Below, piece after piece: positions 1,364-13,367 of a DNA stretch of 38,593 bases. Each line of letters opens with the position of its first letter. Position 1 is the stretch's first letter. Both the position numbers and the translations under genes were made by a program. A model generated the notes under the pieces. The model did no database searches. It was not told the DNA's origin and saw nothing but the letters and a program-made list of their open reading frames with translations. The DNA comes from an uncultured Eubacteriales bacterium (GTDB taxonomy: Bacteria; Bacillota; Clostridia; Lachnospirales; Lachnospiraceae), in contig ONED01000035.1 in assembly GCA_900316755.1 (NCBI GenBank), positions 1-38,593 on the forward strand, written 5' to 3'.

Positions 1364-1378
1364 TTAGGAGTGCACGCT

Positions 1379-3478
1379 ATGTTTGAACATGCAAAATGGA
1401 TATGGTGTCAAAATGCAGATGTGACGGACAGCTACACAGAATTCTATGTTAATTGCGAATTGGACGAGGATATTCCCGTCCAAATTCGCATATCTGCGGA
1501 TTCGAATTATGCAGTCTATGTAAACGGTGCTTTTGCCGATAGTGGACAATATGCGGATTTTCCGCATTATAAGGTGTTTGATGAGATTGATATAAGCCAT
1601 TATATTCATGCAGGGAAAAATCACATTGCAATCGTGGTGTGGCATTATGGGATTCCTTCTTTTGGCTATTATATAGGAAAGCCCGGTGTGATTTTTGAAG
1701 TGGAGCAGGCAGGAGAGATTATCTGTTCCTCCGATGAAAACATCTTATGTAGAAAGAGCAGACGCTACACAAGCGGCAGAAATGTGAGAATTACGGAGCA
1801 ACTTGGACTGACCTTTCATGTGGACATGAAGGAAAACAATAACTGGATGATGGGATTGGATCTGGATGATTTTGACCACAGTTTCTTGCAGACAGGAATG
1901 CCTCAGGAACTCTATCCAAGGGAGATTCGGAAGCTTATTGTAAAGCCGCGGGCTGCATCTGAAATAGTGAGTCAAGGTGGATTCACATATCTTCCGGAAG
2001 AAGGACATGCAGGATTTCGCATGATGCACGCGGCCATTTCGTTCTATCGCTGGTTCGATATAGGCGAGAAGAAAGAAGGGAAGACGATTTTAAACAGACC
2101 TTGCGGAGAAGGAATCTATTTTATTGTTGATTTAAAAGAAGAAACTGCAGGTTATGTGGATTTTGATATAGAAGTAGACGAAGATTGTGAACTGGAGATT
2201 GGATGGGGAGAGCATCTGGAAGATGGACGCTGCAGTACACAAATCGCAGAACGAAATTTCTCGGCAACAGTCAGTTTAAAGCGTGGAAGAAATAGCTATA
2301 TGAATCCATTTCGACGGATGGGATGCAGATATCTACAGTTCTTTGTACATACATCGAAGGTTGCAATATATTATGCGGGGTTAAGACCAAGTGTATATCC
2401 GGTAACCATACAGCCGTATGAAAGTGGCAATCTTTTGCGGGACGAAATTTATAAAGTGTGCTGCAACACCTTACTACATTGCATGCATGAGCACTATGAG
2501 GATTGCCCTTGGAGAGAGCAGGCATTCTATTCGTTGGACTCACGCAATCAGATGCTTTGCGGATATTATGCATTCGGAGAGACAGAGTTTCCAAAGGCAG
2601 GATTGAAGTTGATTGCAAGGTCTATTCGTGAGGATGGATTGCTTCCAATGTGTTATCCAACCAATGAAAAACTTGCGATTCCATCATTTGCACTATCTTA
2701 TCTCTTGCAGGTGGCCGAGTATTACAGACACACGAAAGACAAAGAAACCATCGAGTTCTGTTTCGATACTGCCAAGACGGTGATTGATACTTTTGTGGAA
2801 CATATTGATGCGACCGGGCTGGTTCCAATCTTTGATGAGACAAAGAAATATTGGAATTTCTATGAGTGGCAGCCGTATCTGAACGGAAGAGGAAATGAAG
2901 GCAAAGTGTATGACATGTGTCTGAATGCATGGTTATCGCTTGCCTTGGATTATTTTATAGAGATTTGCGAGGTGCTTGAGATAGATGCAAAGGACTACCG
3001 CTTCACAAAAACGAGTTTGAATGAAACGATTGCCAGAGAATTCTATGATGAGGCAGCAGGACTTTTTGTTATATGTAGAGGTCAGGAGCGAGATCAATAT
3101 AGCGTCCTTGCAAATGCACTTGGATGCCTGTGTGGTGCGGCAGACCACCTGAACAGAGACACCATGATGAAGATTATTCTGCAAAACGGATGGGATGGAG
3201 AAGGGATGGATGTCATTCCGGCAACGCTCTCGATGCATACCTTCCGGTATGAAGCATTACTCAAAGAAAATAGAGATGTCTATAAAGACAAAATATTAGA
3301 TGAAATTGACCATGTCTACTTCCGCATGTTGCGGATGGGAGCAACTTCCTTCTGGGAAACGGAACTTGGAAGCAGAGATTTCAGCTATGCAGGTTCGCTG
3401 TGTCATGGATGGAGTGCAATGCCGATATATTACTACAAAACCCTTGGGGAGAGACAAGATTATGAATGTGAACAGTAG
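1379..3478 (+). CDS. GH78-like (alpha-L-rhamnosidase-type) six-hairpin glycosidase
   Basis: This predicted 699-residue enzyme has no signal peptide and is probably cytoplasmic. An N-terminal beta-sandwich (residues ~1-330; WIWCQ, ISADSNYAVYVNG, HIAIVVWHYG) precedes an (alpha/alpha)6 domain. Family landmarks are the DCP motif at Asp375-Pro377, Asp387 in the position of the usual acid, and the late FWETELGS segment with Glu660, followed by SLCHGWSAMPIYYY. The usual RExxGWxGD sequence is altered to REQAFYSLD, so substrate specificity may differ from true rhamnosidases. The listed ATG has AGGAG eight bases upstream; a GTG nine bases earlier overlaps that site and is less likely. The gene overlaps the following hexosaminidase gene by 17 bases, indicating one operon. 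Confidence 0.8.
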   Translation: MFEHAKWIWCQNADVTDSYTEFYVNCELDEDIPVQIRISADSNYAVYVNGAFADSGQYADFPHYKVFDEIDISHYIHAGKNHIAIVVWHYGIPSFGYYIGKPGVIFEVEQAGEIICSSDENILCRKSRRYTSGRNVRITEQLGLTFHVDMKENNNWMMGLDLDDFDHSFLQTGMPQELYPREIRKLIVKPRAASEIVSQGGFTYLPEEGHAGFRMMHAAISFYRWFDIGEKKEGKTILNRPCGEGIYFIVDLKEETAGYVDFDIEVDEDCELEIGWGEHLEDGRCSTQIAERNFSATVSLKRGRNSYMNPFRRMGCRYLQFFVHTSKVAIYYAGLRPSVYPVTIQPYESGNLLRDEIYKVCCNTLLHCMHEHYEDCPWREQAFYSLDSRNQMLCGYYAFGETEFPKAGLKLIARSIREDGLLPMCYPTNEKLAIPSFALSYLLQVAEYYRHTKDKETIEFCFDTAKTVIDTFVEHIDATGLVPIFDETKKYWNFYEWQPYLNGRGNEGKVYDMCLNAWLSLALDYFIEICEVLEIDAKDYRFTKTSLNETIAREFYDEAAGLFVICRGQERDQYSVLANALGCLCGAADHLNRDTMMKIILQNGWDGEGMDVIPATLSMHTFRYEALLKENRDVYKDKILDEIDHVYFRMLRMGATSFWETELGSRDFSYAGSLCHGWSAMPIYYYKTLGERQDYECEQ

Positions 3479-5279
3479 CAATCTAAAAGACAGTCTAAAG
3501 AGCGGTGTAAAAGCATTGGAGGAAAATGGTTTTCTGCAAAGGTGTGAGAACGGCATTCGATTAGATGCGATTCAGGGTAGTACGATGATGGTCGAGAAGC
3601 ATGAAGACACCATCACTATCACTTATGATACAGAGCCACATTTTTATATGGCATTGGCACGCAGCATGGTCATGTCTGAGGGAAAACACATAATCGAAGC
3701 AAAGGCAAAACGGCTTGGGTTTATGCTGGATTGTTCACGCAATGCAGTGTCAAAGCCAAGAACCGTGAAGGAATTAATCTGTTTGCTGGTTATGGCAGGA
3801 TATGATTATCTGGAACTGTATACAGAGGACACCTATGAACTGCCGGATGAGCCTTATTTTGGCTATAAGCGTGGTCGATATAGCGCGGAGGAACTGAAAG
3901 AAATCGTTGCTTTTGCAGATAGATTCCGCTTTGGAGTTGTGCCGTGCATTCAGACGTTGGCACATCTGAAGACATTGGCAAATTGGAAACCGTATTACGA
4001 CCACATGGATATTGATGATGTTCTTCTTACCGGTGATGAGAGAACCTATCGCCTGATTCGCAAATGCATCCGTTTTTGGAAAGAAATATGTCATACCAAG
4101 AGAATCAACATCGGAAGTGATGAGGCATATCGACAGGGGCGTGGAAAGTACACAGATATCTACGGATATAAAAGTACACCGGAGGTATATCTGGAACACA
4201 TGCAGAAGGTGTTTGAAATCTGTAAGGAGGAAGGTGTAGAACCGGAATTCTGGGCGGACGCTTTCTATGATTCGAAGTTTTCGAAAGAGGAAGTAGAGAA
4301 TCTCTTTGATGGCACACAGTTGCCAATTGTGTGGCGGTATCGTTATACAGAAGCGGAACAGCTTCACGACTATCTTCCGCGGTGTAAAGAATATGCAGGT
4401 AAGGTCATGTTTGCCTGTGCCGCATATCGATGCTACAGTTACGCTCCTGAAAATCTGTATTCCCAACGCAGTATTGATGCCTTGTTTGATGTGGCATGGC
4501 AATATGGTGTGGATGATGTACTGCTGACTGCCTGGGGAAATGATGGAAGCGGTTGCTCGGCAATTGCGATTATGCCGACGATATGGTATGTGGCACAGAA
4601 ACTTTATCCCTGTGATGTTGATTTGGAACGCTTGCTGTATGAGCTTACGGGCTATACAAAAGCGGAGTGGGAAGTGTGCGATAAGTTAAATTATGTGATG
4701 CCTGGAACGAACAGGCAGACAAATGCAGCGAAATATTTATTGTATAACGATTTTTTAATCGGTCTTTTGGATTATAACATTCCGGATCATGCGGCAAAAA
4801 TCTATCAGGATTTATTGCCGGAATTCAGGGTATTGGCGGAACGCGGAGGAAGGTTTTCTTATCTCTTTGCAGTATATGAGGCGCAGTGCAGAGTGCTTAC
4901 ACGTAAAGCGACGTTTAGTAAACGCTTATACAAAGCATATCAGGAGGACGACAGGGCGACGATAAGGAGCCTGATAGAAGAACTCCCTCTGATTGCAGAG
5001 GATTTGAAAGAATTTATTCGGTTATACCGCATTCACTGGATGACGGAGTACAAAGGATTTGGTTTTGAGGTAATTGACATCCGTATCGGAGGATTAATTG
5101 CCCGAATTGACACGGTAATCAGTGTCCTGAATGATTATTTGGATGGGAAGACAGAACGTATCTATGAGCTTGATGAGAAGCGGATTGAGTATTTCTGTAA
5201 TCAGCTCAAAGGCGAGGATGTATATTCCCCATTCCATTGTCATTGGGGAACTGCATATACAGTGAATATTGTTTATTAG
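3462..5279 (+). CDS. GH20-family beta-N-acetylhexosaminidase-like enzyme
   Basis: The 605-residue product has an N-terminal alpha/beta domain and a GH20 TIM barrel starting near residue 86 (GFMLDCSRN; YDYLELYTEDTYEL). The family's catalytic Asp-Glu pair is visible as Asp220-Glu221 in NIGSDEAYRQGRG. GH20 enzymes release terminal GlcNAc or GalNAc by substrate-assisted catalysis. There is no signal peptide, so it probably acts on imported oligosaccharides. The start ATG lies inside the end of the GH78-like gene with GGGGAG upstream; longer frames extending further upstream lack support. The C-terminal ~170 residues are helical and resemble those of intracellular Firmicutes members. It could prefer galactosamine or N-glycan fragments; the sequence alone does not decide. 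Confidence 0.82.
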   Translation: MNVNSSNLKDSLKSGVKALEENGFLQRCENGIRLDAIQGSTMMVEKHEDTITITYDTEPHFYMALARSMVMSEGKHIIEAKAKRLGFMLDCSRNAVSKPRTVKELICLLVMAGYDYLELYTEDTYELPDEPYFGYKRGRYSAEELKEIVAFADRFRFGVVPCIQTLAHLKTLANWKPYYDHMDIDDVLLTGDERTYRLIRKCIRFWKEICHTKRINIGSDEAYRQGRGKYTDIYGYKSTPEVYLEHMQKVFEICKEEGVEPEFWADAFYDSKFSKEEVENLFDGTQLPIVWRYRYTEAEQLHDYLPRCKEYAGKVMFACAAYRCYSYAPENLYSQRSIDALFDVAWQYGVDDVLLTAWGNDGSGCSAIAIMPTIWYVAQKLYPCDVDLERLLYELTGYTKAEWEVCDKLNYVMPGTNRQTNAAKYLLYNDFLIGLLDYNIPDHAAKIYQDLLPEFRVLAERGGRFSYLFAVYEAQCRVLTRKATFSKRLYKAYQEDDRATIRSLIEELPLIAEDLKEFIRLYRIHWMTEYKGFGFEVIDIRIGGLIARIDTVISVLNDYLDGKTERIYELDEKRIEYFCNQLKGEDVYSPFHCHWGTAYTVNIVY

Positions 5280-5295
5280 AAGGAGGAACAGACCT

Positions 5296-8200
5296 ATGAA
5301 AAGAAGGAGGAAAGAATCTATGAAACAAACGATGAAACAACGGCTGGTGGCAATCATTTGCATGGTATGTATGTTGCTCTCTGTATCTTATGTCGGCACA
5401 CCGATATATGCAGAGGCAGAGGGGACGGACATTACGCTTGAGAATGCACCGGAAAGAGAATTTAAGAATTGGACATTCAGTGATGTGGGGCTAACAGACC
5501 AGACCGTGACCGACAATTTGAACTGGGGAACTGACTGGCAGGAGAAAACAGCTGCAAAGACATTGGATAAGACACTGTTTACCGGAAAAATAAAGTTCGC
5601 TGATGATTCCACCCAGTTTGGTAACCTCTATATTGGTGGAGCAGTTCGTGGGGACAACAGTAAATACCGAGGATTCATTATCCGTGGATATAATGACACA
5701 GACCCGAATTTGACATTCGGTTTCGCAGGAAAAGACGGAATTTTCTATAATAAAGACGGAGCAACCAACAAACAAATAGCAGAGTTTTATAGTGACCAGG
5801 CCGGAGTGGCGTTGCGGGGAAACAGTGAGCTGGAACTTGCAATTTCGGTAGAATATACCGATGTAACCACAGCTGGTTTGGTAACAATGAAAGTTGGTGT
5901 TTTCTTTAATGGAAAGCTATATAACAATGAATATTTTACAGTTAAGGATGTGCCAGAAGAATATCTAACTCAGAATATTCGGTGGTACCTTCCTTCTGGA
6001 ACTAACGCGATTGCTTCTTATTTATTAAAAGATACAAGCCTTACAAATTTAGCAAAAGAGGAAGTAATACTTGAAAATGCACCGGAAAAAGAATTTTCTG
6101 AGTGGACGTTTCAGGATGTGGGAATTGCAGATAAGACATTGACTGACAATGATCTGTGGGATAACAACTATACCAATGGAAGATCCCTGGACAAAACAAT
6201 TTTCCGTGGGAAAATCAAGTTTTCTAACGACGACAGTACAAAGGCATTTGGTAATTTCTATATTGGAGCAAAGGATCCTGCAAGTGGAAGCCAATGGAGA
6301 GGTCTTCTATTTACAGCAAACGGAGCAGATAAATTAAACTTCGGTTTTGTGGGAACAGATGGCTGTTTCTTTGATGCAAACGGAAAGACAACCAATACCT
6401 CAAACGGATTTTTGGCAGTGTTTGACCCGGCTGTAGCAGGAACAACCTTAAGAGGAAACGCAGACCTACATGTATCTATCTCAGTAGAGTATGTCAACAA
6501 GACGTCAGACAAGACCGACTTGAAGCTGGGTGTTTTCTTTGACGGGAAGTTATATGATAACACTTACTATACAGTGAAGGATGTGCCACTTGGATATTTG
6601 ACACAGACGATTCGCTTCCGGCCGACAGGAAAATCTAATGAAGTAAAATCTTGTGTTGCGGGAACATATTTGGAAAATATGTTTGATATGGGATATAAGG
6701 AATGGACATTTTCTGATGTAGGTATTGCTGACCAAACATTAAGTGGACATCTTAACCTGACTAGAGTTGCAACTACCACGCCTAAGTTAGATAAAACCAT
6801 TTTTAACGGGAAAATTCTATTCCCGGCAGGAGGCAGAGATATTTTCGGTAATTTTTACGTGGGTGGTGCTTCCGATGCGAATAGTACCAATGGCACTTGG
6901 ACGGGATTTTACCTTCGAGGTAGCACAACGGTAGATGAAGGGCTAGACCTTCTCTATACGAACGACTCAGGAACTACTGCTTACAATATTTGTACGTTTA
7001 AGAAAGAAACGGCAGGGACAACGCTTCGCGGCAATGAAAACCTACAGGTTTCCGTTTCGGTGGAAACGATAAAAGATACAGAATCAGGATCGACGGTTAC
7101 GGTGAAATTAGGTGTATTCTTTGATGGAAAGTTGTACGATAATCAATATTATTATCCAACGGTTTCAACCGGAATTTTATATAAGACCGCGAAATGGGCA
7201 AGTGCGAAGAATAGCCCAAGGGTTGCTTCTCACAGAGCATCCCAGATTACACTGGAGAATGCCCCGGAAAAGGACTATACATACTGGACCTTCTCGGATA
7301 TTGGAATTCAAGATCAGGTCATTGTAAACAACTATCTCTGGGATAATTTATATACGAATAATGGTACATTAAATGAAACGATCTTTAACGGAAAGATCAA
7401 TTTTGATAATACAACTAATTTTGGTAATTGTTTTATTGGTGGGGCAAACACGACAGACGGCAACAAATATTCCGGATTTCGTTTTAATGCGGATGGAACC
7501 ACAGATTGCCTGAATTTTGGGTTCTATGGCGCAGGTAATTACTATAATGAAAACGGCAATACAGGAAACGGAAGCAAGACGGGAATCTTAACTGTTATAA
7601 CACCGGAAAAAGCAGGAACAACTCTTCGTGGCAATTCCGAACTACAAGTTTCTATTTCCGTAAAATATGTGAGTGTGACAGATACAACAGCCACATTAAA
7701 GGTAGGTCTTTTCTTAGATGGAAAACTCTACAACAATGAGTACTACACCGTAAAAGATGTACCAAAGGAGTATCTGTATCGTACCGTACACTTTAATCCG
7801 ATAGGGCAGAACAATCGGATACAATCACTTGGCAAGGCGAAGAATCTCCTGGCAGATACATCTTCCTTTGAGCTTGCGGCAAGCCATGTCAATGGGTACG
7901 CAGAGAATATCGGATATGGTACAGAATGTCTGACCGATGGTGTAGCAAAGCAGACAAAACCTTATTATATGGGAGTTGATAAAGCAGCAACATTAGAATT
8001 TTCATTTGATGGTGTTTACAATGTTGACCGTGTTCGTTTATACAGAAACTATGCAGCAAGTAGTTTCCCTCAAAACTTTACAATCAGTGCGTATACAAAG
8101 GATGGCTGGCAGACAGTCAAGACAGTAAGTAATTATGCATCTTCTGTAGGTTGGAATAATATTTCTTTTGATGATGCAGTATGTTCAGCGATTCGTTTGA

Positions 8201-9702
8201 CAACCACGGACGCTAGCAAAATGGATCTTGGTGAGATCGAGATTTTGGGAAGCGATACTCTGGCAAATGTAGAAACCCCGGGTATGGTCAGCTATGAGGC
8301 AGTAGCATTGGCAGTTGGACAAAATGAGGTCGCATTAAATAATGGTACTTATGTAGAGGAAGGATATCGCCTGATTGCGAATTCTGCAAATGAGACAGCG
8401 AAATTGCAGTTCATGTTTGATTATACCGTAGATGCAAGAGGAATCAGCTTCTTTACAAAGGAGGCGGAAGCATTTCCAAGCGCGTTTCAGGTATATGCAT
8501 ATACAGGAAGCGCATGGGAATTAGTTCATACAGTTAGCGGATACACGCCAAGTGCGGGCACAAGACTTCATGAATTTACGTTTAATAGCCCGGTGACTTG
8601 TACCAGTATCATGGCAGTATTTGACACCTTATATGATATCTATGGAGCAGGCAATTCCTATGGCCTTCAGATTCAGGAGATGCGTGTGGATGGTGTTCAA
8701 TCAAAAGAAAACCGTGCGTTATTGGGCGTAGTTGATACCCAGGGTTCTCGTGTAGAGAGTACAGATATTAATGCAGTAAGAGAGATATTGATTGGAACAA
8801 GAACAGCTTCCGCAAGCTTTGATTTGAATATGGATAGAGAATGTACTGCAAAGGATTTAGTGAGAATAAAACGTTTTTTTTCAGCAAGCGGTAACAAGAC
8901 GAGAGAATTTGACATCACCTGTATGAGTTTTAACCTGCTTGCCGAGGATAGTGATGTGTATGGAACACAGGCAACACGTGCGCCGCTCATTGCACAATAT
9001 ATTCGTGAACAGCAACCGGATTTAGTGGGTATTCAAGAATGTGCAAAAGCCACAACATACGATTGGACTACCGATTTTGTAAATCAGGTATGTGCAGATG
9101 GATTGTACACAGCGGTAAAGATTGGTGACGAATCTGGTTTTAAAAATACTAGTACCCATTATAAAGCGGATGGAACGATTCCGGCCGGATCCGGTCTCGT
9201 GATTTTCTATAAAACAAGTCGCTTTGAGACGCGTGTAACCGGAGCTGCGGAATATTCTGACATCTCATATACGTCAGATAATCAACAACGTTATTATCAG
9301 TGGGTAATGCTGACGGATAGATTGACGGGTGAGAAAGTGACCATGACAAACACGCATTGGTCCATCAATCGTGATGAGGAAGGTATTGCTAATCGCTCGA
9401 AACAGTCGGAGCAGTTGTTAGCATTCTGGCAAAAGGAAGTTGGAAATGGATTGCTTTTTGGAACCGGCGATTATAATGATAATCAGAGAACACAAAGCAT
9501 TGATAATTTGCAAAGCACAATTTATAAAGAAGTGATTGGACTGAAAGGTGGCTCCGATCATGTAATTAATCACATTGATCACGTGTTCTGCAACCCACAA
9601 GTGATGAACCTGAAAGAAAGCGAATTCTTACATGCGACAGTAGGAGGTACGGTTCTCTCAGATCATTCACAGATTTTGACAACAATATCTTATAAAAAAT
9701 AA
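5296..9702 (+). CDS. Large secreted protein: 4 repeat modules, 2 discoidin-like domains, dockerin-like segment, EEP phosphoesterase
   Basis: The ~1468-residue product starts with a signal peptide (KQRLVAIICMVCMLLSVSYV, likely cut near IYA|EAEG). Four ~200-residue modules follow at about nt 5431-6020, 6064-6650, 6664-7215 and 7246-7825, each opening with a variant of LENAPEKEFxEWTF. Two F5/8 type C (discoidin, CBM32-like) domains span about 7843-8250 and 8290-8695. A dockerin-like segment at about 8725-8890 has one good calcium loop (DLNMDRECTAKD: D1, N3, D5, D12) and one degenerate one. The C-terminus is an endonuclease/exonuclease/phosphatase domain: MSFNLLAED, QPDLVGIQECAK (metal Glu ~1248), TNTHWSI, GTGDYND and a final SDHSQ. 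Such domains cleave phosphodiesters or phosphomonoesters; the substrate is unknown. Two starts (5296 and 5320) each have an AGGAGG nine bases upstream; 5320 gives a more typical 31-residue signal peptide. Confidence 0.82.
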   Translation: MKRRRKESMKQTMKQRLVAIICMVCMLLSVSYVGTPIYAEAEGTDITLENAPEREFKNWTFSDVGLTDQTVTDNLNWGTDWQEKTAAKTLDKTLFTGKIKFADDSTQFGNLYIGGAVRGDNSKYRGFIIRGYNDTDPNLTFGFAGKDGIFYNKDGATNKQIAEFYSDQAGVALRGNSELELAISVEYTDVTTAGLVTMKVGVFFNGKLYNNEYFTVKDVPEEYLTQNIRWYLPSGTNAIASYLLKDTSLTNLAKEEVILENAPEKEFSEWTFQDVGIADKTLTDNDLWDNNYTNGRSLDKTIFRGKIKFSNDDSTKAFGNFYIGAKDPASGSQWRGLLFTANGADKLNFGFVGTDGCFFDANGKTTNTSNGFLAVFDPAVAGTTLRGNADLHVSISVEYVNKTSDKTDLKLGVFFDGKLYDNTYYTVKDVPLGYLTQTIRFRPTGKSNEVKSCVAGTYLENMFDMGYKEWTFSDVGIADQTLSGHLNLTRVATTTPKLDKTIFNGKILFPAGGRDIFGNFYVGGASDANSTNGTWTGFYLRGSTTVDEGLDLLYTNDSGTTAYNICTFKKETAGTTLRGNENLQVSVSVETIKDTESGSTVTVKLGVFFDGKLYDNQYYYPTVSTGILYKTAKWASAKNSPRVASHRASQITLENAPEKDYTYWTFSDIGIQDQVIVNNYLWDNLYTNNGTLNETIFNGKINFDNTTNFGNCFIGGANTTDGNKYSGFRFNADGTTDCLNFGFYGAGNYYNENGNTGNGSKTGILTVITPEKAGTTLRGNSELQVSISVKYVSVTDTTATLKVGLFLDGKLYNNEYYTVKDVPKEYLYRTVHFNPIGQNNRIQSLGKAKNLLADTSSFELAASHVNGYAENIGYGTECLTDGVAKQTKPYYMGVDKAATLEFSFDGVYNVDRVRLYRNYAASSFPQNFTISAYTKDGWQTVKTVSNYASSVGWNNISFDDAVCSAIRLTTTDASKMDLGEIEILGSDTLANVETPGMVSYEAVALAVGQNEVALNNGTYVEEGYRLIANSANETAKLQFMFDYTVDARGISFFTKEAEAFPSAFQVYAYTGSAWELVHTVSGYTPSAGTRLHEFTFNSPVTCTSIMAVFDTLYDIYGAGNSYGLQIQEMRVDGVQSKENRALLGVVDTQGSRVESTDINAVREILIGTRTASASFDLNMDRECTAKDLVRIKRFFSASGNKTREFDITCMSFNLLAEDSDVYGTQATRAPLIAQYIREQQPDLVGIQECAKATTYDWTTDFVNQVCADGLYTAVKIGDESGFKNTSTHYKADGTIPAGSGLVIFYKTSRFETRVTGAAEYSDISYTSDNQQRYYQWVMLTDRLTGEKVTMTNTHWSINRDEEGIANRSKQSEQLLAFWQKEVGNGLLFGTGDYNDNQRTQSIDNLQSTIYKEVIGLKGGSDHVINHIDHVFCNPQVMNLKESEFLHATVGGTVLSDHSQILTTISYKK
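5431..7825 (+). repeat. Four tandem copies of an unrecognised ~200-residue module
   Basis: The repeat unit runs from ENAPEKEFxxWTFxDVGI through LDKTxFxGKIxF, FGNxYIGGA, LNFGFxGxDGxFY, AGTTLRGNxELxxSISVEY and KVGVFFDGKLYDNxYYTVKDVP to YLTQxIRF. Two more copies and a partial one lie in the gene at 1-1363. At DNA level, bases 5-76 match 6538-6609 with one difference over about 70 bases, which indicates recent duplication or gene conversion between the two genes. Confidence 0.8.
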
Positions 9703-9718
9703 AATTGGAGGAATGAAT

Positions 9719-9847
9719 ATGAAATATGAAAACCCGATAATGGAAATATCCCAATTTGAATGTATTGATGTTGTAACTGTATCAGGTAACGAAGTTTCTG
9801 ATGGTAAAATTGAAGATGCCAATTCGTTGCCGGGAGAAGCATGGTAG
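9719..9847 (+). CDS. 42-residue peptide between dockerin and cohesin genes
   Basis: A short frame starts at ATG 9719 with GGAGG seven bases upstream and ends in TAG at 9847. It encodes a 42-residue acidic peptide beginning MKYENPIMEISQFECIDVVT and ending in NSLPGEAW. There is no signal peptide or membrane segment. The start fits a pattern (MKYExPxMEIxxFExxDVxTxS) that I recall as common among small clostridial proteins of unknown role encoded beside secreted protein genes; that is memory, not a search. It lies 16 bases after the phosphoesterase gene and 25 before the cohesin-like gene, so it is part of the operon. A RiPP precursor is possible in size, but no maturation enzyme is nearby. Confidence 0.6.
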   Translation: MKYENPIMEISQFECIDVVTVSGNEVSDGKIEDANSLPGEAW

Positions 9848-9872
9848 TGTTTACAGAAAGGAGGAGATAAGT

Positions 9873-10982
9873 ATGAGAATGAAGAACAAATGGTTACAAG
9901 CATTTTTAACCTTGGCATTAGTGGTGTCATGTATAACAGGCGTTTCGGCAGTGGCTGATGCTGCAGAAGTTGCGGGAAGTGTTACGACGGAAAAAGGTAT
10001 TCAGTATGTGCCATGCGATATGAGTGAGTATTGGTCGCAGACAGAGAAAACAGCTCCTGAAATGGCGAATTATGTTTTTGGGGGTTGGTACACAGGGACG
10101 GATGGAGTATTTACTGCGATAAAGGAAGCGGATGTGACTGCAGACTCTACTGGAAAAGCATCTATGTCAGGTACCTATGCGAAATTTGTGAAAGCAGAAG
10201 TTTTAGGTGTGAAGGCACAGGTTGATGTGGATACGCAGGAGAAAGGATTAAGTCGTGAAAACGCTGCCAGTATCCGTTTGGTTTCCGGATTGGATTCCAA
10301 AGATTATCAAAGAGTGGGATTTAAGGTATTATTGGCAAATAGCAAGCCTGTTTATAAAGATAATGACGATGTAAAGAAAGAACCATTGGAAACCAAAAAG
10401 GTTTATACAGGCTTGAAGATTGGTGATGCGACTCCGCTTTCCCCTGCCAGTATCTTTGGAGAGCAGGCAGAATTCCTGAGCGTTTGGAGATTAGATAATA
10501 TTATTACAGCGAATGACAGCAAAATTATTAACGTAACTCCTTACTGGATTACAATGGATGGTACAAAAGTGGAAGGTTTATCAAAATACGTTCATGTAGA
10601 AGATAGTTATATGGGATATATTAGTGTTCCGATTAATCTTAGAACTGCGAAAAAGATTGCAGCAGGAACTGTGACTTTGACATATCCGGAAGGACTCGTT
10701 TTGGTAGAGGAGAAAGTAGAATATGATGAAGTATTTCCGGCATCGGAGATGAAATGTCATGATACCGGCAATAGCGCGGTTAAGCTGGTTGGGAATGCAA
10801 AGGTTGTAGATACCGCAGTCGATGCAAACGGCATCTATGCAAATTTGCGTTTCAAAGTCGGAACTTCAGGATATCAAGGTGTTGGGAAAGGAACCATATT
10901 AACATTTGGTATCAGTGATGCGTTCTTCTGTAATTGGGGAGAAGAAGAAGTTCCAGTGAATGTCTGGGATATCAAATATTAA
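9873..10982 (+). CDS. Secreted protein with InlB-type repeat-like segment and C-terminal cohesin-like domain
   Basis: The 369-residue product has a signal peptide (KNKWLQAFLTLALVVSCITG, cut near ADAAE). Residues ~45-90 (YVFGGWYTGTDGVFTA) resemble an InlB B-repeat. A middle domain (SIRLVSGLDSKDYQRVGFKV; IINVTPYWITMDGTKVEG) is of a type often seen in secreted Lachnospiraceae proteins. The last ~125 residues look like a cohesin: ISVPINLR, AGTVTLTYPEGLVLVEE, DANGIYANLRFKVG, GTILTFGISDAFFCNWGEEEVPVNVWD. This matches the cohesin order (strand start VPVNL, TLKYDP-like strand, a FKV strand, final EVPVxV). A cohesin here, two genes after a dockerin-like segment, suggests the two proteins may assemble. 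AAAGGAGG lies eight bases before the chosen ATG. There is no wall-anchor motif. Confidence 0.65.
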   Translation: MRMKNKWLQAFLTLALVVSCITGVSAVADAAEVAGSVTTEKGIQYVPCDMSEYWSQTEKTAPEMANYVFGGWYTGTDGVFTAIKEADVTADSTGKASMSGTYAKFVKAEVLGVKAQVDVDTQEKGLSRENAASIRLVSGLDSKDYQRVGFKVLLANSKPVYKDNDDVKKEPLETKKVYTGLKIGDATPLSPASIFGEQAEFLSVWRLDNIITANDSKIINVTPYWITMDGTKVEGLSKYVHVEDSYMGYISVPINLRTAKKIAAGTVTLTYPEGLVLVEEKVEYDEVFPASEMKCHDTGNSAVKLVGNAKVVDTAVDANGIYANLRFKVGTSGYQGVGKGTILTFGISDAFFCNWGEEEVPVNVWDIKY

Positions 10983-10999
10983 ACAGGAGAAACAATGTT

Positions 11000-11794
11000 A
11001 TGAAGGTAACACATGATTTTCATATTCATACGAATCTCTCGCTCTGTGCAGAGCCGGATACAACGCCGGAATTCTATGTGCGCAGAGCGGAAGAAATCGG
11101 CCTTAAAAAATTAGGATTTGCAAATCATTTTTGGGACGAAAGGATAGCGGGAGCGAATGACTTTTATGTGTCACAAAATCTGGAATATGTTCTGAAATTA
11201 AAAGAAGAACTAAAGCAAATCAAAAGTGATACAGTTCAGACCTATTTTGGCTGTGAAGTGGAGTATGATTTTGCTCATCGCGGCGTTTCGCTTACTGAGG
11301 ACGTTGCAGAACAATTTGACTTTGTAGTGGTTCCAAATTCACATACGCATATGACAATGCCAAAGGATTGCTACGAACCATACCAAAAGCATGCGGACTT
11401 TATGGTTCAGGCGTATGAAGATATTTTGAACAGCAATGTAAGTCGTTATATTACGGCGATGGCACACCCTTTTGAAGCGGTGTGCTGCCCGTACGACTAC
11501 AGTATCCTAATTGATATTATTTCTGATGATTGTTTTAAGCGATTATTTGACCTGACTGCGAAGAAAGGGGTTGCGGTGGAAATCAATATTGGAAATTATC
11601 ATGACCTTGAGGATGCGGATATTGAAAAGTGTTCTCAAATAAGAATGTTCCGAATTGCCAAGGAGTGTGGGTGTAAATTTATATTTGGCAGCGACGCACA
11701 TAACCGGAGACGCCACAATTCCTATGGACACGCGGATGTCCTGGCAGATATTTTGGAATTGAGAGAAAACGATATCGCAGAAATTGCAAGATAA
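11000..11794 (+). CDS. PHP-domain phosphoesterase (histidinol-phosphatase-like)
   Basis: The 264-residue protein has the PHP metal motifs: HDFHIHTN at the N-terminus, a second-motif-like LGFANHFWDE, GCEVEYDF, then MAHPFE and a final FGSDAHNRR. PHP enzymes are metal-dependent phosphatases; relatives act on histidinol phosphate, nucleotides and sugar phosphates. With no other his genes nearby and glycosidases on both sides, dephosphorylating a sugar phosphate or related product is more likely than histidine synthesis (inference). There is no signal peptide. The ATG has AGGAG ten bases upstream; it follows the cohesin-like gene by 17 bases and is followed by the GH13 gene after 28. Confidence 0.8.
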   Translation: MKVTHDFHIHTNLSLCAEPDTTPEFYVRRAEEIGLKKLGFANHFWDERIAGANDFYVSQNLEYVLKLKEELKQIKSDTVQTYFGCEVEYDFAHRGVSLTEDVAEQFDFVVVPNSHTHMTMPKDCYEPYQKHADFMVQAYEDILNSNVSRYITAMAHPFEAVCCPYDYSILIDIISDDCFKRLFDLTAKKGVAVEINIGNYHDLEDADIEKCSQIRMFRIAKECGCKFIFGSDAHNRRRHNSYGHADVLADILELRENDIAEIAR

Positions 11795-11822
11795 GAAACA
11801 ATCGGACAAAGGAGATTTTAAC

Positions 11823-13367
11823 ATGAATAATTGGCTTAACAGTGCCATTGTATATGAGATATACCCGCAATCCTTCAATGATACCAACGGAGACGGAATC
11901 GGTGATCTTCGAGGTATTATTGAAAAACTGGACTATATTGAGTCTATGGGGTTCAATGTGATTTGGTTGAATCCGATTAATGAGAGTTCTTTCCGTGACG
12001 GCGGTTACGACATCACAGATTATTATAAGGTCGATCCGCGATATGGAACCAATGAGGATTACCGAGAACTCTGTAACGCGGTTCATGCTCGTGGTATGCA
12101 CATTATTTTTGATTTGGTTGCGGGTCACACCTCCATTGATCATCCTTGGTTTATTGAATCATCCAAGGTGGAGAAGAACGAGTACAGCAATCGTTATATA
12201 TGGACCGAGAATGTATGTGAAGGCGGTCCGGGAGTCAGTGGATACGCGCAAAGAGACGGAGTGTACATACAGAATTATTACTGGTGTCAGCCTGCCCTTA
12301 ACTATGGCTATGCACATCCGCAGGCTCCCTGGCAGCTTCCGGTAACACATCCGGACTGTGTTGCAACGAAAGAGGAGTTGAAGAAGATTATCTATTTCTG
12401 GATGGATATGGGCGTAGATGCATTTCGTGTGGACTTGGCGCCCACCCTTATCAAAAATGATTTCGATGGTTCCTTCACAAAAGCATTTTGGCATGAAATA
12501 AGAAGTTGTATTGAGGCAAAAAATCCGGAGTGTCTTTTGATCTCTGAGTGGGGAAAACCGGCACTGGCAATTGATACCGGATTTCACGGAGATTTTCTCC
12601 TTCATTGTTGTCATCCGGCGTATACTTCTTTATTCCGGCATGAGGCAGGGAGAAATGTAATCAGTCAGTATATCGGACACAGCTATTTTGATCAAGATGG
12701 CAAGGGAAACATCAATGATTTCCTTGATCATTTCCTCGAGCAGTACGAACAGATTGGCGAGAGAGGAGTGATTGGATTAATCTCCGGCAACCATGATATA
12801 CCGCGTATCGGATATCGCCGTACTCAGGAAGAGATGAAGCTTGTCATGCTGTTCCTATTTACGATGCCGGGGGTACCTTTTGTTTACTATGGCGACGAGA
12901 TTGGTATGGATTATATGGAAGGACTTCCTTCAAAGGAGGGGGGCTATATCCGCACAGGTTCTCGCACACCGATGCAGTGGAACGATGAGAAAAACCGTGG
13001 TTTTTCAACCAGTGATACGCCGTATCTGCCGACGGATGAAAGAGAAGGTGCACCTACGGTTTCATCACAGCTTGCAGATGACAATTCACTGCTATTGTTC
13101 GTGAAAAAACTGGCGATGCTTCGCAAAGAGAATCCAGAGCTTTCAGGAGTATCAGATTTAAACATTTTGATGCCGGGTTACCCATTTGTTTATGAGAGGA
13201 CAGTGAACGGGAAAACATTCTTTATTGCGATGAATCCTTCTAAATATACGCACTATTATGATATGCCGGAATTAAAGAACGTGATTGCAAGCCAGCATGT
13301 TGAGAGAGATGGAAAGCATTTGGTGCTTAACGGAGTAAGTTTCATTATTGCAGAGAAGCATGTCTGA
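11823..13367 (+). CDS. GH13-family alpha-glucosidase/amylase-type enzyme
   Basis: The 514-residue protein has the GH13 barrel motifs in order: NSAIVYEIYPQSFNDTNGDG, a region-I VAGHTSIDHPWF, DAFRVDLAPT with nucleophile Asp204, LLISEWGKP with acid Glu242, and SGNHDIPR with Asp325. MPGVPFVYYGDEIGM and RTPMQW follow as in oligo-1,6-glucosidase, trehalose-converting and related members. Region I reads AGHTS where NHTS is usual (Asn to Gly). It has no signal peptide, so it is cytoplasmic, and it is the last gene of the operon, with AAAGGAG upstream of the ATG. The exact alpha-glucoside cannot be read from the sequence. Confidence 0.88.
   Translation: MNNWLNSAIVYEIYPQSFNDTNGDGIGDLRGIIEKLDYIESMGFNVIWLNPINESSFRDGGYDITDYYKVDPRYGTNEDYRELCNAVHARGMHIIFDLVAGHTSIDHPWFIESSKVEKNEYSNRYIWTENVCEGGPGVSGYAQRDGVYIQNYYWCQPALNYGYAHPQAPWQLPVTHPDCVATKEELKKIIYFWMDMGVDAFRVDLAPTLIKNDFDGSFTKAFWHEIRSCIEAKNPECLLISEWGKPALAIDTGFHGDFLLHCCHPAYTSLFRHEAGRNVISQYIGHSYFDQDGKGNINDFLDHFLEQYEQIGERGVIGLISGNHDIPRIGYRRTQEEMKLVMLFLFTMPGVPFVYYGDEIGMDYMEGLPSKEGGYIRTGSRTPMQWNDEKNRGFSTSDTPYLPTDEREGAPTVSSQLADDNSLLLFVKKLAMLRKENPELSGVSDLNILMPGYPFVYERTVNGKTFFIAMNPSKYTHYYDMPELKNVIASQHVERDGKHLVLNGVSFIIAEKHV

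Follow-up and report, generated by a model that had tools for sequence, protein, structure and literature searches.

Pairing through single cohesins outside cellulosomes is known from Clostridium perfringens, in which five cohesin proteins each carry a glycoside hydrolase domain, and a cellulosome-like mucin-degrading system (the mucinolysome) has been predicted in Limousia – both according to one study (PMC12997984). Here we describe a locus in a 38,593-nucleotide stretch of DNA from an uncultured Lachnospiraceae bacterium (the window), which is the entire contig C70 of an assembly of 2.14 Mb in 90 contigs. The locus encodes a large phosphoesterase with a dockerin-like segment and, beyond a small peptide gene, a second secreted protein that ends in a cohesin-like domain. 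From their sequences and placement, we propose that the two genes probably encode a private cohesin–dockerin pair that displays the enzyme through its neighbour, outside any cellulosome. Homology of both domains, the neighbourhood of such genes in this genome, their co-clustering in a second species, and the sharing of a module by the neighbour and other proteins form the observed base of this proposal. The central features are:

5296..9702, + strand: secreted dockerin-bearing phosphoesterase, 1,468 residues (open reading frame (ORF) and domain searches)
8749..8880, + strand: dockerin-like domain (sub-cut-off PF00404 match, leave-one-out hidden Markov model (HMM), calcium loops)
9719..9847, + strand: 42-residue peptide ORF of an unnamed family (family comparison)
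9873..10982, + strand: secreted single-cohesin protein, 369 residues (ORF and homologues)
10590..10979, + strand: divergent cohesin domain (profile searches)

A divergent cohesin and a weak dockerin in neighbouring genes

By profile comparison, the C-terminal domain of the 369-residue protein (10590-10979) is a cohesin homologue, too divergent for Pfam to recognise from its own sequence. The initial annotation had noted cohesin-like strands; these are in place (YISVPINL at 10617-10640, GTVTLTYPEGL at 10665-10697, IYANLRFKVG at 10833-10862, and EVPVNVWDIKY at 10947-10979), and profiles now back the cohesin identity. A search of the same genome with the protein gave 11 further matches at E <= 1e-3 and one at 0.002, and the relatives found in named database records all belong to one metagenome-assembled genome from goat colon, Tyzzerella sp. 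RGIG2081 (G007; completeness 67%), which is assigned to the window's genus; NCBI places Tyzzerella in the Lachnospiraceae. In a search with a profile of six family members, the C-terminal domain matched the PDB chains 1g1k and 2vn5 (2e-5), and the N-terminal part matched InlB repeats more weakly. With a 13-member profile of the C-terminal domain, the top three chains were 1g1k (5.1e-7), 2vn5 (6.1e-7), and 5nrm (4.4e-5), followed by 5nrk (4.6e-5), 4ums (0.026), and 4uyp (0.039). Four of these six are labelled scaffoldin or scaffolding protein and the other two, 5nrm and 5nrk, endoglucanase; we take the latter chains to be cohesins, and 1g1k and 2vn5 presumably come from CipC of Clostridium cellulolyticum.

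PF00963 was listed for five of the 13 members at a lenient limit of E 10 (best 7.4e-7), and a relative on contig C28 of the window's own genome reached E 2.4e-4, under the cut-off. Consistent with cohesin homology of the family, hhalign comparison of 15 members with 30 Pfam-detected cohesins gave 97.6% (97.7% without the C28 member and a second member, L074). The same comparison gave 0.1% for the shared module described below, 8.8% for repeats, 0.2% for dockerins, and at most 0.8% for 30 column shuffles.

The likely start of the cohesin-like protein is the ATG at 9873, because a longer frame from 9801 runs into the peptide gene; its signal peptide was judged by eye. A plasmid search with this protein gave no match. 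Inspection of the aligned family members found one cohesin-type domain per protein rather than the multi-cohesin scaffoldin of a cellulosome. Because the protein has a single cohesin, we call it an adaptor; 'scaffold', the word first chosen for it, overstates what is there.

On sequence grounds, the segment within the phosphoesterase is a weak dockerin with one calcium loop intact and one degenerate. The intact second loop, correctly picked out in the initial annotation, is DLNMDRECTAKD at 8821-8856, and the degenerate first loop reads DTQGSRVESTD (8734-8766). The segment matches PF00404 at E 0.018 and 15.6 bits, which does not pass the cut-off of 22.9, and at 19.4 bits in the genome search, likewise below it. 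An HMM trained on 14 further dockerins from this genus recovers it from 2,277 ORFs at 13.1 bits (E 0.0085). Two-sequence dockerin alignments were dropped, as they paired repeat 1 with repeat 2.

Several results, together with some of the gene placements considered in the next section, weigh against a cohesin–dockerin pair. Searched against PF00963, neither 9801-10982 nor 10590-10979 alone gave a Pfam match, and the window dockerin is the weakest of the 15 in leave-one-out tests as well as below the Pfam cut-off. Separate structure predictions were both of low confidence. AlphaFold modelled the mature adaptor (five rows) at a mean predicted local distance difference test score (pLDDT) of 48, good over the InlB-like part alone; the cohesin region came out mostly as strands, but at pLDDT 22-44 per ten-residue block. 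The dockerin alone was modelled with two helices at a mean pLDDT of 52, and a Foldseek search with this low-confidence model returned no match at E <= 0.001. Neither model was counted as fold evidence.

The missing Pfam match, the degenerate first loop, and the low-confidence models would also fit a cohesin-like sandwich with another role (e.g. glycan or self binding) and a dockerin-like degenerate linker that never meet. We regard this as distinctly improbable: it leaves unexplained why dockerin and cohesin genes repeatedly co-occur in two species, and eight of the nine dockerins listed by a genome search of G007 score over the Pfam cut-off.

Pairing of dockerin and cohesin genes in two species

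The window's genome holds six full-length cohesin-type genes, on contigs C70, C80, C78, C72, C41, and C28, and five counted dockerins, on C25, C80, C70, C41, and C78 (a sixth listed match, on C10 of this assembly, was partial with E 0.54 and was omitted). For four of the five dockerins the distance to a cohesin gene is 0.9 to 2.9 kb, a pattern with a chance of about 3e-6 (binomial, 4.5 kb span); this and all other placement p-values assume uniform placement and ignore clustering of secreted genes. On C80 and C41 the dockerin is on the next large frame, while a frame of ~130 residues separates the two genes on C78 and the peptide ORF separates them on C70. The claim that the window pair is split only by a 42-residue peptide gene thus holds (9719-9847).

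In G007 we counted eight full-length cohesin genes, including one on C14 with an in-frame stop; a partial family member (L074, 6861-8252) stands outside the count. A same-strand dockerin gene lies within 22 kb of six of the eight – directly adjacent on C23, one gene away on C27, and farther off on C31, C18, C19, and C14. The remaining two cohesin genes sit at the ends of contigs C11 and C12, where no dockerin was seen. No family cohesin is found near the dockerins of C4, C5, C10, and C30. Six of ten dockerins within 22 kb of a cohesin gene corresponds to a p of about 0.005, or 0.0001 when strand is counted. The C14 dockerin scored 6.3-9.5 bits with our own HMM and was then included on visual inspection.

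Other points also count against the pairing. In four of the six G007 pairs (C31, C18, C19, and C14), some 10 to 22 kb of same-strand distance separates the two genes, the weakly scoring C14 dockerin is split from its cohesin gene by an opposite-strand gene, and close pairing in this genome is not significant (p 0.065 for two of ten dockerins within 4.5 kb). The partner dockerins of C80, C31, and C23 scored 22.4, 22.5, and 20.7 when whole proteins were scanned, just under the cut-off of 22.9, which all three pass in genome searches. In the window's own genome, the visible neighbour of the C72 cohesin gene lacks a dockerin, although it has repeats and a transmembrane tail, and the short C28 contig shows no dockerin either.

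Large secreted proteins might simply cluster in glycan-utilisation loci, and the loci are indeed rich, by eye, in secreted proteins with shared repeats. Such clustering would accommodate the distant pairs of the second species and the absence of significant close pairing there. It is poorly reconciled with four of five own-genome dockerins having a cohesin gene no more than 3 kb away, given the chance value above (which itself takes no account of such clustering), and we consider it very improbable as the whole explanation. The repeated pairing in two species fits the idea, already put forward in the initial annotation, of a two-protein complex outside the cellulosome.

We observed a second kind of adjacent pair in the same genus, formed by canonical dockerins and neighbouring cohesins or cohesin-like proteins. 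Four canonical dockerins (C25 of the window's genome, C5 and C4 of G007, and C37 of genome G006) have two near-identical helices, alike at 8 to 11 of 11 residues; a second G006 match, partial with E 0.107, was omitted from the counts. The proteins encoded after the C5 and C4 dockerin genes are Pfam cohesins (3.5e-8 and 2.2e-8, respectively). C25 combines a Pfam glucosaminidase domain with its canonical dockerin, and the next protein, in which Pfam finds no cohesin, has a transmembrane tail by eye. The Pfam domains of C5 are SH3 and cadherin-like; of the three loci, C25 and C5 show a transmembrane tail by eye and C4 does not. The C4 dockerin protein has InlB-like repeats and weak CHAP and cohesin matches by Pfam. 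A glucosaminidase identity for all four canonical-dockerin proteins was rejected, as Pfam supports it for C25 alone. Pairs of this kind, in which a cohesin or cohesin-like gene comes after a gene with a canonical C-terminal dockerin, lie at L022:4027-7447, L081:3866-7539, and L078:6443-10996.

The ten co-clustered dockerins, by comparison, are asymmetric, their helices being alike at 1 to 5 of 11 residues. A helix of the form D[LVI][VI][RASH]xx[KRW] (DLV-type) occurs in nine of these ten and in none of six others (C10, C30, and the four canonical ones), a lead only, since pattern and helix segments were picked by eye after the sequences were known. In one G007 adaptor partner, at L033:7529-10681, Pfam identifies a Laminin_G_3 domain, and motifs resembling those of metallophosphoesterases were noted by eye; the metallophosphoesterase reading was set aside, as Pfam finds no phosphoesterase in this protein.

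Both domains could be genuine and adjacency still reflect locus architecture, if the main docking site of the enzyme were a cohesin at a different place, either in the adaptor of another locus or in a cohesin-like protein encoded next to a canonical dockerin gene. Six family cohesins in the genome and separate canonical dockerin–cohesin loci in the genus would leave room for this, as would the weak co-divergence of cohesins and dockerins (mirror test on ten pairs, r 0.28, p about 0.03), which itself could stem from locus duplication. Canonical dockerins, however, are symmetric and lack the DLV helix, a post hoc distinction that suggests separate specificities. On balance, we judge docking elsewhere to be unlikely.

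Under the private pair that we favour, the phosphoesterase would be secreted, as its signal peptide (judged by eye) suggests, and its dockerin would dock on the single C-terminal cohesin of the neighbouring protein, a partnership to which homology and neighbourhood both point. Docking would mainly involve the helix DLVRIKR that follows the intact second loop. The neighbour would act as an adaptor, one per locus, and its binding would presumably depend on calcium.

The shared module, the upstream peptide, and the surrounding genes

What the adaptor might contribute is suggested by the part that precedes its cohesin:

10047..10589, + strand: InlB-repeat-like plus uncharacterised module (homologues)

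This module precedes the cohesin in each adaptor; elsewhere, in the same genome and in relatives, it forms part of other proteins, many of them large. It is C-terminal in two L028 frames (one cut by a contig end), L029 (cut), and a 2,009-residue frame of L080, and N-terminal in two L030 frames, L073, L031 (in part), and C28, where it is followed by a cohesin and a GH123-N-like domain. Among solved structures, the sole match to the module was a weak one to InlB (E 0.28). Since other proteins of the genome carry the module covalently, docking would supply it to the enzyme in trans, so that the adaptor would give the phosphoesterase what those proteins have in cis. Judging by this cis/trans arrangement, the module would most likely serve to attach proteins to a surface or substrate.

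The 42-residue peptide encoded before the adaptor belongs to a family of ~35-55 residues whose members begin with MxYxxPxMEI and have an acidic tail, often ending in W or F. Copies lie directly upstream of, or slightly overlap, 12 of 14 cohesin genes, with weak scores at C80 and C72; C41 has an interrupted copy only, and the 270 bases ahead of C28 showed no copy. Five members scanned against Pfam and NCBIfam gave no match. In a separate NCBIfam scan, five proteins yielded only four matches, far under the cut-offs and judged to be chance. Peptide matches at E <= 0.01 occur in 10 of the 98 genomes examined, the window's own included.

Further copies were seen at L033:5752-5886, L065:2147-2278, L066:9696-9812, L070:8139-8273, and L025:9986-10141, among others. 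The peptide also stands just upstream of several other module-bearing proteins, and L034 has a tandem double copy. Weaker relatives in other genomes (L119:1459-1608 and L125:1453-1602) lie, by eye, beside genes that we take to be signal-peptidase-like and HPr-kinase-like, a setting that recalls peptide-maturation clusters.

A fuller scheme would be a lineage-specific plug-in system in which every glycan-utilisation locus has its own adaptor, with an InlB-like surface module and a single, highly divergent cohesin, together with an enzyme whose one-faced dockerin is tuned to it and a dedicated ~40-residue peptide that serves assembly, display, or signalling. We put this forward tentatively, as unlikely in its entirety.

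The phosphoesterase itself likely starts at the ATG at 5296, preceded by an AAGGAGG site. Its remaining domains are:

5440..7839, + strand: four repeats of ~195-210 residues each (sequence)
7840..8718, + strand: F5/8 type C (discoidin) domain (PF00754, E 1.7e-8)
8890..9699, + strand: Endonuclease/exonuclease/phosphatase domain (PF03372, E 8.1e-7)

The PF03372 match scores 29.4 bits for the domain alone and 24.6 bits for the whole protein, against a cut-off of 24.5, and the N, E, NTH, GDYND, and SDH motifs, which we take to be the catalytic motifs of this family, are in place. The enzyme may be glycan-binding, as first described; pointing that way are the F5/8 type C match, within whose region a second discoidin-like stretch was seen by eye, and repeats without a family match (the first was searched against Pfam with no match). 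Repeats of ~200 residues without a family name, alike by eye, recur at 41-1363 of the window (an ORF at the contig start), at 5440-7839, and in L027, L023, and L025. By eye, a transmembrane tail (L027) or a sortase-like motif (L066 and L070) forms the end of some large proteins of these loci.

The genes around the pair lie on the same strand:

1370..3478, + strand: alpha-L-rhamnosidase-like glycosidase (PF17389)
3300..5279, + strand: GH20-type protein (PF18088, PF00728)
10934..11794, + strand: PHP-domain protein (PF02811)
11784..13367, + strand: GH13 alpha-amylase-family protein (PF00128)

The order on the + strand is therefore rhamnosidase-like, GH20-type, phosphoesterase, 42-residue peptide, cohesin-like protein, PHP, and GH13. 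The true start of the GH20-type protein is probably later, because its ORF overlaps the preceding gene. A PHP-type gene next to a GH13-type gene recurs near the loci (window 10934-13367, L025:792-3551, and L080:1759-4191); L025 has DUF3604 instead of PHP, and the L025 and L080 assignments were made partly by eye.

Comparison with known cohesin–dockerin systems

We found no description of the adaptor family in the literature searched (titles and abstract openings, mostly outside subscription papers). The apparent novelty lies in the adaptor, which is non-catalytic, occurs once per locus, carries a cohesin of a divergent family, and comes with a shared module and a linked peptide. Of 291 genomes sampled within this class, 125 have Pfam cohesins (E <= 0.001), and since the cohesins described here are too divergent for standard annotation, systems of this type may be undercounted. 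If the proposal is correct, cohesin–dockerin docking would provide modular one-to-one display of non-cellulosic enzymes, a phosphoesterase among them, and the adjacent pairs would be candidates for new orthogonal binding pairs.

The closest solved chains by profile, 1g1k and 2vn5, are scaffoldin cohesins, whereas the loci described here have no tandem cohesins and involve other enzymes. C25 and the C5 and C4 loci of G007 likewise encode a dockerin protein and a cohesin-type protein in neighbouring genes; they differ in their symmetric dockerins, which score well above the Pfam cut-off, and Pfam recognises the protein encoded next as a cohesin in C5 and C4, not in C25. According to the published account (PMC12997984), Limousia shares with the window the use of cohesins and dockerins by gut bacteria beyond plant cell wall breakdown, but some of its scaffoldins carry tandem cohesins, whereas here we find single-cohesin adaptors, one per locus. 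The C. perfringens proteins, as described in the same source (PMC12997984), are alike in having one cohesin per protein and in pairwise assembly without a multi-cohesin scaffoldin. The window adaptor differs from them in having no recognised catalytic domain and in being encoded beside its presumed partner; within its own family, the C28 member, in which a cohesin and a GH123-N-like domain occur together, is the exception.

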